Shown: in pieces, positions 3,313-27,422 of the stretch
Numbering within the stretch: the stretch's first letter is position 1
Layout: each line of letters begins with the position of its first letter
Source of the DNA: Armatimonadota bacterium
GTDB lineage: Bacteria; Armatimonadota; Fimbriimonadia; Fimbriimonadales; Fimbriimonadaceae
Direction: 5' to 3'
NCBI GenBank assembly: GCA_016223145.1
Contig: JACRPN010000005.1
Coordinates: forward strand, 1-40,464
DNA: 40,464 bases
Program-made: the position numbers and the translations under genes
The notes under the pieces: generated by a model
Databases searched by the model: none
Seen by the model: the letters and a program-made list of their open reading frames with translations, nothing else
Told to the model about the DNA's origin: nothing

Positions 3313-4887
3313 ATGAGGATGGGAACACTCGCTTCGATCGTCGTCGCCGCAGGATGCCTGGCGCTCGGCACGTATTCCGCCGCCCAAGTGGACGGCATCG
3401 ACCTGGTCGCCGGGAACCAAAACGTGGAGATCACGACGGTCCCCGCCGAATCCGCGATGCAGACCTACCGCGTCACGCAGAGTTCGAAAATGGCCAAGCC
3501 GAGCCCCGCGAGCACGAAGGCTCTGCAGAAGAAGATCACGAAGCGCTTCGCCAACGCCAACCTTTCCGAGGTTTTGGCGTGGCTGAGCCTTCAAGACCTC
3601 AGCTTTGTGGCCGACATGGGGGCCTTTCCCGATCGGAAGGTCACCTTCAACTTCAAGAACCAGACCCTGAAGAACGTGATGGACACCATCGCCGAGACGT
3701 TTGGCGGCGCCTGGAGCCAGAAGGGCGACATCTACACGCTGACGCCGAAAGCGCCCAGTTTCGTGTTTTCGCGTTCCGGAAAGGCCGGCTCGCAACCGTG
3801 GAGCTCCATTGCTCCACAGACCTTCACCATGACCCCAAAGGGCGAGTTCAAGCTCCAACCGATGCCGAACCGCGTCTGGGCGACTCCCAAGACCGAGTTC
3901 AAGATCGAGGGCTTGCCCAAGAGGAACTTCGAGTTCTCTTTGGGCAACATGCACAACCAGGGCAAGGAGCTGACCCCGGCCCAAAAGAAAGAGGTCGAGG
4001 CTGCCATGGCCAGGGCCAAGGAAGAAATCAAGCGGGCGATCGAGGAGCTAAAGGGGCACAAGGGCCATATCCAGGGACTTGATGACAAGCAGCTGCACGA
4101 GCTCATCAAGCATCTCCAGGAGATCATCGGGAAATCCGTGGGCGGCGCCTTCCAGTGGCAGGGCTTCGACGAAAACTCGATGGACCTCAAGCTCTTTGAA
4201 AAAGGCGAGATGAAGGAGCTTCATGACAAGGAACTGGCTGAGCACATGAAGGCTCTCCAGGGCCTCAAGCTCGATGAAAAGCACTTCGGCGACGCCATGA
4301 AAGAGCACATGAAGGCTCTGGAAGGGTTGAAGGGAGACCACATCAAGGTCTTCAGCGGCGATGAGATGAAGGAGCATATGAAGGCGCTCCAAGGCCTAAA
4401 GCTCGATGAGAAACACCTCGGTGACGCCATGAAAGAGCATATGAAAGGGCTGAAGGAGCTCGAAGGTAGCCATTTCAAGATGCTTGACAGTGAAAAGCTC
4501 AAGGCCCTTATCGAGAAGTCCCACGGCAACATGAAGGGGCTTGACGGGGAGAAGCTCAAGGCACTCATGGAAAAGTCTCATGCCGAGATGAAGATGCTGG
4601 ACGCCGACAAGATGAAAGAGCTGATGAGCAAAGCCCATGCAGACCAGAAGCGCGTACTGGAGCTGGCCGAGGCGGGCAAACTCAAGGCCAAGGTGACCGG
4701 CGAGAACCTGGGCAAGTTGGCCGAGTCACTGACCGACGCCCAGCGCGAGCTCATGAAGAAGCAGGGCTACCTGACGCCAAAGGACCTTACCGAGGAGCAG
4801 CGCAAGCTGATCCCCGACATGGGCAAAGGTGACTGGACTCTGACCTATTCGAAGGACGGCAAGTCGGTGACGATCAAGGGGGGATAG
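3313..4887 (+). CDS. Exported STN-domain protein with Met/His/Lys-rich helical repeats
   Basis: 524 residues. A signal peptide (residues 1-24, TYSAA before the likely cut) sends it out of the cytoplasm. Residues 68-145 resemble the STN (secretin/TonB short N-terminal) fold: two LQKKITKRF / LKNVMDTIAETFGG type helices around beta strands. Residues 308-446 are seven degenerate 19-23-residue repeats, the best pair being EHMKALQGLKLDEKH at 310-324 and 354-368, exactly 44 residues (132 bases) apart. The repeats are rich in Met, His, Lys and Glu and should be helical or coiled. The end (FTDA-like AESLTDAQRELMKKQGYLTP) looks like a separate helical cap. Start ATG follows GAGGTG. STN domains usually sit on secretins or receptors; here no secretin or barrel domain follows. 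Function unknown: metal binding, or a periplasmic scaffold, are guesses. Confidence 0.8.
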   Translation: MRMGTLASIVVAAGCLALGTYSAAQVDGIDLVAGNQNVEITTVPAESAMQTYRVTQSSKMAKPSPASTKALQKKITKRFANANLSEVLAWLSLQDLSFVADMGAFPDRKVTFNFKNQTLKNVMDTIAETFGGAWSQKGDIYTLTPKAPSFVFSRSGKAGSQPWSSIAPQTFTMTPKGEFKLQPMPNRVWATPKTEFKIEGLPKRNFEFSLGNMHNQGKELTPAQKKEVEAAMARAKEEIKRAIEELKGHKGHIQGLDDKQLHELIKHLQEIIGKSVGGAFQWQGFDENSMDLKLFEKGEMKELHDKELAEHMKALQGLKLDEKHFGDAMKEHMKALEGLKGDHIKVFSGDEMKEHMKALQGLKLDEKHLGDAMKEHMKGLKELEGSHFKMLDSEKLKALIEKSHGNMKGLDGEKLKALMEKSHAEMKMLDADKMKELMSKAHADQKRVLELAEAGKLKAKVTGENLGKLAESLTDAQRELMKKQGYLTPKDLTEEQRKLIPDMGKGDWTLTYSKDGKSVTIKGG

Positions 4888-4986: not shown

Positions 4987-6370
4987 ACACCAGCTCCACA
5001 GTCTCCAGGTGTCTCGGAATCGTCGTGTTCCATCCCAGGACCTCGCCGATCTTGTTGGCAAGCGCCGCCTGAGCCTTTGGCTCGCCGTGAACAATGAAGG
5101 TCCGCTTGGGCGGCTTCTGAAAGCCGGATAGCCACCTCAGAATCTCGCCCTGGTCGGCATGCGCGGAGAGCGCGTTCACCTTCTCCACCTTCGCGCGGAC
5201 CTCGACCTCCTGACCCAACACGCGAACCGTCGGCTCCCCTTCGATCAGATCCCGTCCCAAAGTGCCCTCCGCCTGATACCCGGTGAACAGCACCACCGTG
5301 TTGGTCCGCTCCAGCCGCGCCAGCAGGTGATGCACCACTCGCCCGCCGTTGCACATGCCGCTGCCGCTGATGATCATCATCGGGCCCTGGCGCGAGTTGA
5401 GCTCCTTCGACTGCTCCCGGTCCCGGACCCACGTCACGTCCTTGGCCTCCAGCGGATTCTGCTGCTGGTCGAGCACCAGGCGCGCTTCTCGGTCGTATTC
5501 CTCCGTGTGCTTCAGGTACTGGACCGTGGCCTCACTGGCCATGGGGCTGTCAACGAAGATCGGGACCCGCTTGATCCGTCCTGAATCCTGCAGCCGCTTA
5601 ATGTAGAAGAGCAGCTCTTGGGTACGGCCGATGGCGAAGCTCGGCGTGATGATGCATTGCCCCTGCTCCCACGCCTCGTTCAAGATGTGCTCCAGCTTGA
5701 GCTCGGGGTCCTCGACCGAGTGCAGCCGGTCCCCATACGTGCTTTCGACCACGAGGTAGTCGGTGTCCGCGACAGCTTCGGGATCAAGCAGGATCGGGGT
5801 GTCGTAACGCCCAAGGTCCCCCGACATGAGCAGGTTTTGGCCATCCGGCAGATCCATCGAGGCGAACGCGGACCCCAGAATGTGCCCAGCGGGCAAATAC
5901 CTGTAGGTCACTCCCCCCGGAAGCTGGAATGGCGTATCAAAGCGCACCGGCTCGAATCGCTTCAGGCACCGAAAGGCGTCGGCTTCGGTATAGAGGGGCA
6001 GCGCCGGCTTGTGCCGGGTCAGGGCGTGCTTGTTGCGGTACCGGGCGTCGTCTTCTTGCAGGCGGCCGGAATCGGGCAGGCTGATCCTGGAAAGGCCAAT
6101 GGTCCCAGGAGTGGCATAGATCGGCCCCCGATAGCCCTGAGCGACCAACCTCGGCAGATAGCCGATGTGGTCCATGTGGGCATGGGTGATCACCACGGCA
6201 TCGATGTCGTGAGGCTGGATGGGAAGCGGCTGCCAGTTGCGCTCGCGCAGTTCGCGTTTGCCCTGAAAGAGCCCGCAATCGACGAGGATTTGCTTGCCAC
6301 GTACACGAAGGAGATGTTTGGAGCCGGTAACGGTCTCTGCGGCGCCGCAGAACTGAAGGGTACAGGTCAC
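4985..6370 (-). CDS. Beta-CASP metallo-beta-lactamase-fold hydrolase (RNase J/CPSF73-like)
   Basis: 461 residues, the usual size for bacterial YSH1/CPSF-type proteins. The zinc motif THAHMDHIGYLPR (H63, H65, D67, H68) is followed by MSGDLGRYD (metal-bridging Asp), the beta-CASP segment starting at VESTYGDR, and the C-terminal RMMBL-type block ALSAHADQGEIL plus FIVHGEP. These residues support a two-zinc phosphodiesterase acting on RNA as an endo- or 5' exonuclease, in the cytosol. Start ATG at 6370. It is not RNase J proper, being shorter and lacking that family's C-terminal domain. Its stop lies in the arm of a hairpin repeat. Confidence 0.93.
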   Translation of the reverse strand: MTCTLQFCGAAETVTGSKHLLRVRGKQILVDCGLFQGKRELRERNWQPLPIQPHDIDAVVITHAHMDHIGYLPRLVAQGYRGPIYATPGTIGLSRISLPDSGRLQEDDARYRNKHALTRHKPALPLYTEADAFRCLKRFEPVRFDTPFQLPGGVTYRYLPAGHILGSAFASMDLPDGQNLLMSGDLGRYDTPILLDPEAVADTDYLVVESTYGDRLHSVEDPELKLEHILNEAWEQGQCIITPSFAIGRTQELLFYIKRLQDSGRIKRVPIFVDSPMASEATVQYLKHTEEYDREARLVLDQQQNPLEAKDVTWVRDREQSKELNSRQGPMMIISGSGMCNGGRVVHHLLARLERTNTVVLFTGYQAEGTLGRDLIEGEPTVRVLGQEVEVRAKVEKVNALSAHADQGEILRWLSGFQKPPKRTFIVHGEPKAQAALANKIGEVLGWNTTIPRHLETVELV

Positions 6371-6398: not shown

Positions 6399-6866
6399 CT
6401 ACCAATAGGGCGGAAAGATCACGCCGTCCTGGTTCCGGTTGTCCGAGTAGATGACGCGGCTGTCTGACAAGCTCCAGCGATCACCTGTTCTTTCGAGGGT
6501 CATTCGGATGGCCGGCCGGTCGACGCCACCCCAGGTGGAAGGCTCCTCGGCGATCGCGAGGACATAGGCTCTGTTGCCCGTATAGCCGAGCACTTTGTAG
6601 AAGGCGTATTTGCCGTCGATCCCTTCTTCGTCAACGGCCTCCTGAACGGCCTCCATCATGGAACCTCCAACGAGTGCTGTCTGCGCCTCAAAGAAGGCAT
6701 AGGGCAGCAGGGAACACGCGATGAACAGCGTCACCCAGATCTTCGAGGAGCCGTCTCCACCGTTCACCTGGATAGGACGGAACATGGTGACGAACAGGGT
6801 CAGCAGCCCTGACGCCACGAAGGCAGCACCGATGTAGAGGATGAACCCAAACATGCTCTTTCCCAT
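6399..6866 (-). CDS. Small membrane protein of unknown function
   Basis: 155 residues from the ATG reading MGKSMFGF; a longer reading from TTG at 6896 is open but that stretch is polar and less likely. Two membrane segments are visible: about residues 5-27 (GFILYIGAAFVASGLLTLFV) and 41-58 (IWVTLFIACSLLPYAFFEA). The remaining ~95 residues are soluble, with a WSLSDSRVIYSDN segment that looks like a beta-sheet domain reporting a physiological value or binding a ligand. It ends 28 bp before the metallo-hydrolase gene, so the two may be cotranscribed. No family is recognised. Confidence 0.7.
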   Translation of the reverse strand: MGKSMFGFILYIGAAFVASGLLTLFVTMFRPIQVNGGDGSSKIWVTLFIACSLLPYAFFEAQTALVGGSMMEAVQEAVDEEGIDGKYAFYKVLGYTGNRAYVLAIAEEPSTWGGVDRPAIRMTLERTGDRWSLSDSRVIYSDNRNQDGVIFPPYW

Positions 6867-24313: not shown

Positions 24314-24724
24314 ATGAAGTCCGAGACCGCTTACCTGACCTTTCAGACCCAACAGAGGGAGGAGTTCGTCTGCATTACTGAGGAGGTCGCCCGGGTCGTA
24401 GGCAAGTCCGGGATTCTAGAGGGGTTTTGCCTCGTGAGCGCCATGCACATCACCTCCGCGGTCTATGTGAACGACCTCGAGCACGGCCTGATCGAGGACA
24501 TCAAGGAGTGGCTGCGGGGCCTTGCTCCCACCAAGGACTATCGCCACCACCGGACCGGCGAGGACAACGGCGAGGCGCACCTAAAGAACCTGGTCTTGCA
24601 TCACCAGGTGATCCTCCCCATCACCTCTGGGCGGCTTGACCTTGGACCCTGGCAGCAGGTGTTCTATGCCGAATTCGATGGGCAACGCCGCAAGCGCGTG
24701 ATCGTAAAGGCAATTGGTGAATGA
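24314..24724 (+). CDS. YjbQ/UPF0047-family protein
   Basis: 136 residues, the normal length. Conserved blocks: [17 protein letters not shown] (His of the family's metal or substrate site), [29 protein letters not shown] (the HxxG/NxxxH core), and [12 protein letters not shown]. Members are linked with thiamine-phosphate synthase side activity, but their physiological role is unsettled. ATG at 24314 is followed by a plausible [12 protein letters not shown] start. The TGA overlaps the next gene's ATG by 4 bp, so the Clp_N-like protein is coupled to it. Confidence 0.93.
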
Positions 24725-26493
24725 TGAAAGAACCTGGAAAGCGGGCAAGACCGGACCCGGCAGCAACGTCTCTCTTGATGCTCGCTGGGAACGAGCGGAT
24801 GGTACGCCGGGCTCATCTCGGACTTGACAAGGCTATGGAGGAGATGACGGGCAGTGCGGACGTGCTTGCCACGTTTCTCAAGAACCATGCCGACGCCGCT
24901 GAGCCGCTTGCCCGCGGGTTGGGAACCGAGGCGGATGTGATCCGGCAACGGGCGGAAGCGATTGGCCCAACCTCGGAGCCGCCTGCCGATCCACCAAGGC
25001 TCCCGCCTAACAAGCAGGAGGCCCTGGATAGGCTAAGAAGCGAAGCCGAATGGAAAGCCCCTTGGTCGGCTCCCGTCACGAGGGCGATGCAAGAGGCCCG
25101 GGATGAGGCGACAACCGATGGCCGCGAGATCTACAGCGTGGGAGAGATGATGGCCGCGCTGCTCGCCTCGGACTGTGAAGCGAGGATGCTGCTTCTGGAG
25201 TTCGGGCCTGCCTCAACACTTGACCGTGCGGTGCGCGAGTTGAAGGGCCGCAAAACACAAGAAGTTGACTTCATGGTCGAGTTTCAAAAGAACATGAAGT
25301 CGATGCTCGACGCGGCTTGGCCTAAGCTGATGGAAGAGGCTAAGCAGATGTCAGCCGATGGCTCGACGCAACGGGACCCGAATGCGCTGAAGGAGGAGCA
25401 TTACGCGAAGGACCCGGCATACTACGACGCGCCCGTTGACCTAGCGAAAAGGCTAAGGGAACCCGTGCCCGACGCTCGCTACCGGAACACCCTGCTTGGC
25501 GGTATCTGCCTGCATGCCGCAGAGAACGAGGCGCGGAGACGAAGCGCCCCTTCCGTTCGGCTTGATCACATGGTATACGTGCTGCTCCAGGATGGCACGG
25601 ACACGGCCGAGTTCCTCGATGGGCTGAAAGTCGACCGAATAGCCTGGCGAAGAAGGCTCGACGAAGCTCTGCCGTACTATCCCGAAGGCCCACGATGGCC
25701 CGCCAACGCCCGAGATCTGGGCATGAGCATCCCCGACCCGGGCGAGACGCACCTTAAGAAGGAGGTTCCAGATTTCCTGGACGTTTCCTCATTAAGCAAG
25801 GAGGAGCGAGGCGAGTACTTCGAAAGGAAGGCGTCAGAACGGAATTTCACGGACCTTGCGTTTCTGGTCCAAGTCCCCACAGAGGATGCTTCCGTGGGCC
25901 ATCAGCTCTTTCAGGAGGCGAATATCTCTCAAGACGCGATCAGAGCCGCCGTCCGCTCAAAGGAGACCGGCGATCCGGAGTGGTACCTGCGAAAGCCGAA
26001 TCTTGCCGAGCAGCTTCGAGACAGTGGCATGGCAACGAGCCTCAACATGCTTCTTTCCGAAAGGCGATGCTTTGAGGCAGCAGAGTTCGAGGCCCGTACC
26101 CGATGGGCGCCATCAATAACGCTCGATCATCTGCTGCTCGCATTGTTGGGGGATGGAACAGATACTTCGGCCTTCGTTGAGTCGATGGGAATTGACCGCA
26201 AGAGCCTGCTCCAAGAGATAGATCGAACGTGCCCTCGGTACAGCTCTGGTCCCTATTTCCCCGAGAGAGATCGCTCCTCCATGTTGGGTTTGGCCGCGTT
26301 CGGGATCCTGGCCAAAAGGCGGTTCAGCGATCTGCTTGCGATCTACGAGCTGCTGAATGACCCGCTCTCGGACTCCACGGCTGCGGGGCGGGTTGGGCTA
26401 AGGCTGCTCATAGACCGGGGTGTGACGCTGGACAACGTGCGCGCGTTTCTGAGTTCATTGGGGGTCGACATCTCGGAGTATGAAAATGGCTAG
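24721..26493 (+). CDS. Multi-module Clp_N-like protein lacking an ATPase
   Basis: 590 residues. The ATG (24721, or the next codon 24724) overlaps the yjbQ stop. It appears to be about six Clp_N-like half repeats, in three pairs: roughly 15-82 and 118-176, 254-316 and 350-415, 440-502 and 520-585. The middle ones are clear duplicates: [20 protein letters not shown] and [20 protein letters not shown], each then followed by a GTDT-A-F segment and a VD/ID helix, and each preceded by DPxYY/DPEWY. Clp_N domains recruit substrates or partners to ClpA/B/C ATPases. No Walker motif or AAA+ domain is present, so it would be an adaptor, chaperone-like sink or binding protein. Function not known. Confidence 0.8.
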
Positions 26494-26520
26494 GGAAAAG
26501 GGCCAGATCAGCAGTCATAT

Positions 26521-26576
26521 GCCTCAGGAGCCTGACTCCACTACCTCATGACCGCTGCAGGCTCTGCTCCTGAGGC
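26521..26576. repeat. Twin hairpin A (56 nt)
   Basis: Perfect 11-bp arms GCCTCAGGAGC / GCTCCTGAGGC around a 34-base loop. The loop can extend the stem as GCCTG...CAGGC. See twin at 26598. Confidence 0.8.
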
Positions 26577-26597
26577 TCTTGGTCGCACTGGGCGTAA

Positions 26598-26653
26598 GCC
26601 TCAGGACCTTGATCCCGGACTCTCGGGAGCGTGCGATCTGAGGGTCCTGAGGC
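26598..26653. repeat. Twin hairpin B (56 nt)
   Basis: Perfect 11-bp arms GCCTCAGGACC / GGTCCTGAGGC, again around a 34-base loop, holding an inner TCCCG-gactct-CGGGA stem. The first nine bases of the arms (GCCTCAGGA) are identical to hairpin A, and the two lie 77 bases apart, start to start. Confidence 0.8.
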
Positions 26654-26792
26654 ATGACCGAGGCTCATGAGCAGTTTCGGACCGTTGCGTCCCTACAGGG
26701 CCCGATCCTTTCGGGCGCCGGCTTTCCAGGGCGATGCCCTTCGCTTTCACCTTTCGGCCCCTTGGTCCTTATCGGAGAGAACCAGCGAGGGT

Positions 26793-27422
26793 TCATAGCC
26801 TGACATCCGCGAGCGAACCCACCACCTCTTCCGCCTCAACCAGGTGGCCGTGGCGCTCGCGATCCACTCCGATGACGTAGCACCCTGCGGCCTTTGCGCT
26901 TCTGACTCCATTCACGGAATCCTCGAAAGCGGCGCAGTCACACGTCTCAAGACCGAGCCTGCTTGCCCCCAGCAAGAAGGGCTCAGGGTGCGGCTTGCCA
27001 AAGACCACGTCGCGCTCGCAGACCAGGGTCTCAAACAAGTGCCCGATCTCGCCGGCAAACCTCTTGCGGACAGCCTCGACATACCACTCCACCGACGAGG
27101 TGACGATTGCCGCCCTCCTCTCTCTTATCCTGGGCAAGAAGGGCAAAACGTCCGGGAATACCTGGATCTGCCGCGCGATGTAGCCGCTGAGGATCGGTTT
27201 TTGGGTCTTGGTGAAGCTTTCAACCGTCAGTGAACTGCTGAACCTGGCATTGAGGTCTTCGAGCATCCTCGGTAAAGTCGTGCCGACATACATCGAAATG
27301 TCCTCCTTCTCGATGGCGAGACCCATCGCATGGAACGCCTCCAATTCGGCCTTTTTATGCCAGGGTTCGGAGTCGATGAGGGTGCCGTCGAGGTCGAATA
27401 GGATGCCTTTGATCAAGGGCAC
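26793..27422 (-). CDS. HAD-superfamily phosphatase (beta-phosphoglucomutase-like)
   Basis: 209 residues from GTG at 27422 (GTG CCC TTG ATC). Motif I is FDLDGTLIDSE (D9, D11); motif II is TSS in AAIVTSS; motif III Lys lies in GKPHPEPFLLGA; motif IV is AAFEDSVNGVRSAKAAG. The cap is the alpha-helical C1 type inserted after motif I. It should hydrolyse a phosphorylated sugar or similar small metabolite in the cytosol; the substrate is not evident. It stands alone beside the ion-channel gene, on the opposite strand. Confidence 0.92.
   Translation of the reverse strand: MPLIKGILFDLDGTLIDSEPWHKKAELEAFHAMGLAIEKEDISMYVGTTLPRMLEDLNARFSSSLTVESFTKTQKPILSGYIARQIQVFPDVLPFLPRIRERRAAIVTSSVEWYVEAVRKRFAGEIGHLFETLVCERDVVFGKPHPEPFLLGASRLGLETCDCAAFEDSVNGVRSAKAAGCYVIGVDRERHGHLVEAEEVVGSLADVRL

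Follow-up and report, generated by a model that had tools for sequence, protein, structure and literature searches.

Several kinds of bacterial repeat are linked to single-strand transposases. REPINs and BIMEs consist of two inverted copies of one palindromic unit, which are joined by a short linker, are intergenic and are linked to genes of REP-associated tyrosine transposases (RAYTs) (PMC3116915; PMC8266576). The TnpA-REP enzymes of E. coli, Stenotrophomonas and Marinomonas bind folded single-stranded hairpins together with their 5' foot, and TnpA-REP enzymes cleave mostly at CT dinucleotides (PMC8266576). In TIRtrons, RAYT-like Y1 transposase genes (TIRYT) lie between inverted repeats that have no relation to GTAG REPs; some of these repeats are self-complementary ('double palindromic'), occur as dimers and make up moderately abundant genomic families (PMC3733652). 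Most TIRYTs have been placed in subclass 2.1 with an HTH tail (PMC6006769). Subclass 2.6 of TnpA-REP (Bertels group 5), which is found mainly in Bacteroidetes, has the signature HuH, WQ, YIH[QN]NP and SS with a median HuH-Y spacing of 82, and its members are flanked by 'atypical' structures that lack GT[AG]G and of which copies occur elsewhere in the genome (PMC6006769).

Here we describe a twin hairpin in an Armatimonadota genome, which is very probably a non-autonomous doublet of putative RAYT-recognised terminal hairpins, similar to a REP doublet, BIME or REPIN, or equally a TIRtron miniature.

The twin hairpin and its second copy

The window, i.e. the whole stretch of 40,464 nucleotides that was analysed, is part of a genome (G000) of 3.87 Mb in 23 contigs, which is 97% complete. 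The twin and its neighbouring genes are arranged as follows:

24721-26493, + strand: gene of a Clp_N-domain protein, the upstream neighbour of the twin
26519-26655: whole REP-doublet-like unit, 137 bp, with inverted-repeat ends of 11 bp, ATGCCTCAGGA...TCCTGAGGCAT
26521-26576, + strand: left hairpin, the forward unit, with arms at 26521-26531 and 26566-26576, AT before it and a CT-type foot after it
26532-26565: left loop, 34 nt, conserved in length and not in sequence
26577-26597: linker joining both units, 21 nt
26598-26653, - strand: right hairpin, the inverted unit, with arms at 26598-26608 and 26643-26653
26609-26642: right loop, 34 nt, not conserved in sequence
26793-27422, - strand: gene of a HAD-type hydrolase (HAD phosphatase), the other, convergent neighbour of the twin

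As stated in the original prediction, both hairpins are perfect 11-bp inverted repeats around loops of 34 nt, with arms GCCTCAGGAGC/GCTCCTGAGGC on the left and GCCTCAGGACC/GGTCCTGAGGC on the right, and the sequence GCCTCAGGA is common to the arms of both. The flanks give the hairpins an orientation, with ATG outside and CTT or CTA inside. The twin sits in a 299-bp intergenic gap between convergent neighbours, of which the upstream one is absent in both sister species. The claim that no gene covers the hairpins also holds, as no ORF of at least 60 aa overlaps the twin by more than 20 nt. Cross-pairing of the four 9-mers, from which switchable structures had been proposed, follows from any inverted doublet, and such structures are possible in principle.

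Perfect inverted repeats of at least 11 bp with loops of up to about 60 nt occur five times in the window and 0-4 times (mean 0.85) in 20 Markov shuffles, so a lone 11-bp hairpin is weak evidence. The twin with its shared arms is well beyond chance, given a second twin in the genome and the excess of the pattern across the family. This second complete twin, the only further one in G000, was found by a search with the hairpins alone and is located between co-directional genes (C14:111841-111978, 138 bp). Its arms are identical to those of the window twin, and in both copies the left stem ends AGC/GCT and the right stem ACC/GGT. The loops and the linker differ in sequence between the two copies, with a similar linker length: 14 of 34 positions of the left loop are identical, and the right loop of the C14 copy is 35 nt long with a different sequence.

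A DNA search with the whole region also drew in an unrelated dispersed repeat downstream, which the hairpin-only search separated from the twin. This second repeat (26685-26780) starts about 30 nt after the twin and comprises a GCCCTACAGGGC hairpin, CCAGGGCGATGCCCTTCGCT and a GGCCCGTTGGGCC-type hairpin. It has about 29 matches in G000, and tandem copies of 177 nt are present in a sister species. It is probably another transposase-linked repeat family, since an IS200-type Y1_Tnp gene (L008) has two copies next to it and one copy is 26 bp away from another Y1_Tnp gene. The sister-species copies (L012 1192-1234, 1369-1411 and 1546-1588) match the Rfam family Acido-Lenti-1 RNA with 18.8-19.4 bits, at a gathering score of 37. 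This is a weak lead that Acido-Lenti-1 might not be an RNA but a DNA repeat linked to a transposase.

Distribution and shared plan in the family

The pattern CCTCAGGA-N(20-45)-TCCTGAGG was found at 28 sites in six of the 85 family genomes, and its reversed control at one site. Five alphaproteobacterial contigs (L111-L115) that came up in the species-wide pattern scan were not counted as relatives; they have another palindrome, CCTCAGGATGAGG...CCTCATCCTGAGG, and no RAYT among the ORFs listed. This intergenic family, CCTCAGGATGAGG-loop-CCTCATCCTGAGG, possesses the same 8-nt core as the twin and is apparently unrelated to it.

We aligned 31 units from six genomes and built a covariance model from them. 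The original prediction had suggested a covariance-model search as a check, and this search, run on the family genomes, found homologues in 18 of 85, with up to about 40 matches in one genome (G006), some of them counted on both strands. The window hairpins match the covariance model R2 with 47.2 bits (E=1.0e-10) for the left one and 56.8 bits (E=1.2e-13, - strand) for the right one. In two sister species of the genus, both complete, no twin-hairpin element was found, and viral contigs had no match to the hairpin.

The oriented unit reads 5'-(C)AT-GCCTCAGGACG-[about 34 nt]-CGTCCTGAGGC-T(T/A)-3' and spans 52-55 nt, counted from its first CC up to its last GG. A twin is one unit followed by its inverse, and such oriented inverted pairs are present in G000, G006 and G019; at a few sites only one hairpin is present, and both of its flanks are of the outer type. 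Two ORFs between units in G019 were considered as well, which have no Pfam domain and look like host genes. Most units are intergenic, without a long ORF over them, and the copies in G006 are found between genes of varied orientation, including divergent gaps.

Across the 31 units the 9-nt arm core is 97.6% identical and the loop length is nearly constant (33-36 nt). The mean loop identity is 31.8% (0.318), against 26% expected from the composition, and it is 36.7% within G006. The 11-bp helix is paired in 95.6% of the cells. At the two innermost pairs, seven cells show compensatory changes of both partners, a number that none of 500 shuffles reached and register slides reached at most three; as the shuffle leaves the relatedness of the units in, this comparison is supporting and not decisive. 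Beyond the stem the loops have no common structure.

Shared loops are rare, and are clearest for two G006 doublets and for the pair of right-hand units next to the RAYT of that genome. The two doublets (L064 7507-7650 and 9312-9455) lie 1.8 kb apart, with the same left loop and nearly identical right loops. They are a recent copy event, unlike most pairs, whose loops differ. Simple copying from a master element does not explain loops that keep their length and not their sequence, because recent copies should share their loops and few do. Old elements under selection for arms and spacing are one possibility; the other is that loops are somehow replaced.

RAYT genes between the hairpins

In G006, the genome with the most copies, a RAYT gene of 185 aa is found between two units (L063:5935-6492, minus strand), with a distance of about 17 nt to the left unit (5866-5918) and about 22 nt to the right unit (6515-6568). 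With NF047646 (REP-associated tyrosine transposase) the protein reaches 94.5 bits, above the curated cut-off of 80; it also matches PF01797 with 3.7e-11, and has the HUH and Y motifs of a RAYT (HVH at 63, YIHQNP at 136). The only match in a PDB sequence search was a non-significant one to E. coli TnpA-REP (4er8, E=0.61). Among intact RAYTs, that of G006 was the only one seen whose ends on both sides are exactly CCTCAGGACG. In addition, contig C362 of G041 has two RAYT fragments (3724-3834 and 3888-3980) between a left unit (3563-3625) and a right unit (4009-4069), and this locus is a decaying element.

Close relatives of the G006 RAYT (E<1e-30) are present in 16 of the 85 family genomes. Beyond the family, four further genomes of the order have relatives (E<=1e-20) and no genome outside the order has one, among 291 genomes of the phylum. 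Several related RAYTs from other genera have hairpins of the same plan: those of G015, G018, G041, G048, G013 and G081 have matched perfect hairpins on both sides, with loops of 32-46 nt and with arms that are specific to the lineage: GCCTCCATACGC in G015, GCCTCCAGACT in G018, CCCCCAACACC in G041, GCCTCCGTATC in G048 and CCCACCACAGT in both G013 and G081. Under a strict flank rule (perfect 10-bp arms, a loop of 30-49 nt and arms matching on both sides), seven out of 30 RAYT loci passed, including G006, compared with none of 600 Markov-randomised flanks and none of 21 other Y1_Tnp loci. The other 23 of the 30 related RAYTs failed this test.

The RAYTs of G006 and G008 are sisters in the tree (support 97/97), and CCTCAGG-type hairpins are found beside both. 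Moreover, the RAYT subfamily occurs in 11 of the 18 genomes with hairpins and in five of the 67 others (Fisher p=4e-6, an optimistic value, as the test treats genomes as independent and these are related). G000 has no close RAYT, the best match having 25% identity (E=9e-8), and no hairpins were found at the G000 Y1_Tnp loci examined.

Possible origins of the doublet

The REP-like mobile unit, one of three guesses in the original prediction, is the one that gained support, from the homologues found by covariance model and from the hairpins that flank RAYT genes in relatives; from this we infer that the twin was mobilised by a RAYT. In such a process the DNA would become single-stranded, for example during lagging-strand replication, and the stems would then fold. 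The RAYT would bind the hairpin and its 5' foot, nick at the foot and then move or copy the doublet. By analogy, the G006-type RAYT may act like the TnpA-REP enzymes that have been studied; the units here have a conserved C-T at the 3' foot. The cognate RAYT might have been lost from G000, or the element might be of outside origin, which would leave two immobile relics. Because G000 is without a close RAYT, its two copies are most simply orphan relics of a lost or foreign element. A more speculative idea, which we regard as rather doubtful, is that this RAYT lineage may read the stem plus a measured distance, as the perfect arms are lineage-specific and the loop has a fixed length and a free sequence. 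The enzyme, perhaps a dimer, would read the geometry, the arms would coevolve with it, and the loops would drift under strict length selection or be actively diversified.

A site for a double-stranded DNA-binding protein, as the original prediction also considered, would consist of four half-sites for a nucleoid or regulatory protein, arranged with fixed spacing as two inverted pairs, which the host would maintain. Palindromic half-sites at fixed spacing would look alike, and the nearly invariant arm core, the near-random loops of constant length and the mostly intergenic copies agree with this. However, the units flank RAYT genes and RAYT remnants, the arm sequence varies with the RAYT lineage, and the asymmetric flanks (AT outside, TT/TA inside) suit a transposase foot. 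Furthermore, the element is missing from both sister species and from most of the family, unlike a host-wide site, and we therefore consider this explanation very unlikely. Even less probable is a structured RNA between convergent genes, be it a small RNA pair, a 3'-UTR element or a bidirectional terminator. The window twin does lie between convergent genes and its stems are strong, with a fold z-score of -3.0 on the - strand, which is expected because the inverted repeats are strong. On the + strand, folding is no better than in shuffled sequences (z -0.77). The loops have no structure in common apart from the stem, and the scan of the region and the window gave no Rfam match at the gathering score. 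No promoter- or terminator-like site was found, nor a strand-specific gene context, given the co-directional genes around the C14 copy and the other orientations in G006, so the small RNA pair, another of the guesses, gained nothing from the analysis.

The least probable of the explanations is a MITE derived from a DDE insertion sequence of the ordinary type, which has terminal inverted repeats. Its resemblance to the locus lies in the 137-bp unit with perfect 11-bp ends, but neither G000 copy is flanked by an obvious target direct repeat, there are four internal arms instead of two ends, and where a gene was found between such ends, it is a Y1/HUH RAYT.

The RAYT-linked doublet is a known kind of bacterial repeat, here in an unusual long-loop form that is enzyme-less in G000. 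For the bacterial order concerned, the literature searched describes no RAYT-linked repeats, and the doublet extends their range to it. A form with perfect 11-bp stems, unconserved loops of about 34 nt and no GTAG foot escapes rule-based REP searches with 2-5-nt loops. The RAYT lineages with their differing arms are a ready set for studying how domesticated transposases recognise hairpins, and the same series bears on the question of why RAYT-linked elements persist once the enzyme is gone.

Comparison with known repeat systems

IS200/IS605 elements such as IS608 and ISDra2 also have subterminal hairpins at both ends, which are recognised by a Y1 HUH transposase, and asymmetric flanks. Their hairpins measure 20-25 nt, and neither end is an inverted copy of the other, whereas here both ends carry one unit, inverted.

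The locus shares with REPINs and BIMEs the inverted palindromic pair with its short linker and the several dispersed, mostly intergenic copies per genome (two doublets in G000, about 40 covariance-model matches in G006). The copy number of two in G000 is low compared with the hundreds known for GTAG REPINs and BIMEs. A cognate RAYT in the same genome is lacking in G000, and matching RAYTs are present in G006, G015, G018, G041, G048, G013 and G081. The canonical GTAG or GT[AG]G (GTGG) 5' foot is absent, with CAT, GAT, TCT or GCT before the stem instead. Canonical GTAG REPs have a 2-5-nt loop or a bulged second stem (PMC6006769), in contrast to the perfect 11-bp stem and the 33-36-nt loop found here.

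By motif reading rather than by tree, the G006 RAYT resembles subclass 2.6, with HVH, WQ, YIHQNP and WSS and a HuH-Y spacing of about 73. It differs in the residue preceding HVH, which is H and not N, and in its host, as subclass 2.6 is mainly from Bacteroidetes.

With TIRtrons the relatives have in common a RAYT gene between non-GTAG inverted or self-complementary repeats (PMC3733652, in the sections used here). The TIRtron majority motif GGGGWSAS given there was not seen in the arms, and those sections hold neither these arm sequences nor fixed loops of about 34 nt. Matched repeats on both sides of the RAYT, a trait of TIRtrons and atypical REPtrons, were found in relatives at seven of the 30 loci and at none of the 600 controls; that the transposase cleaves and moves the repeats, a further such trait, is putative here. 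The twin is REPIN/BIME-like by structure, yet it lacks the defining features of GTAG REPs, and it fits most closely with TIRtrons and atypical REPtrons.
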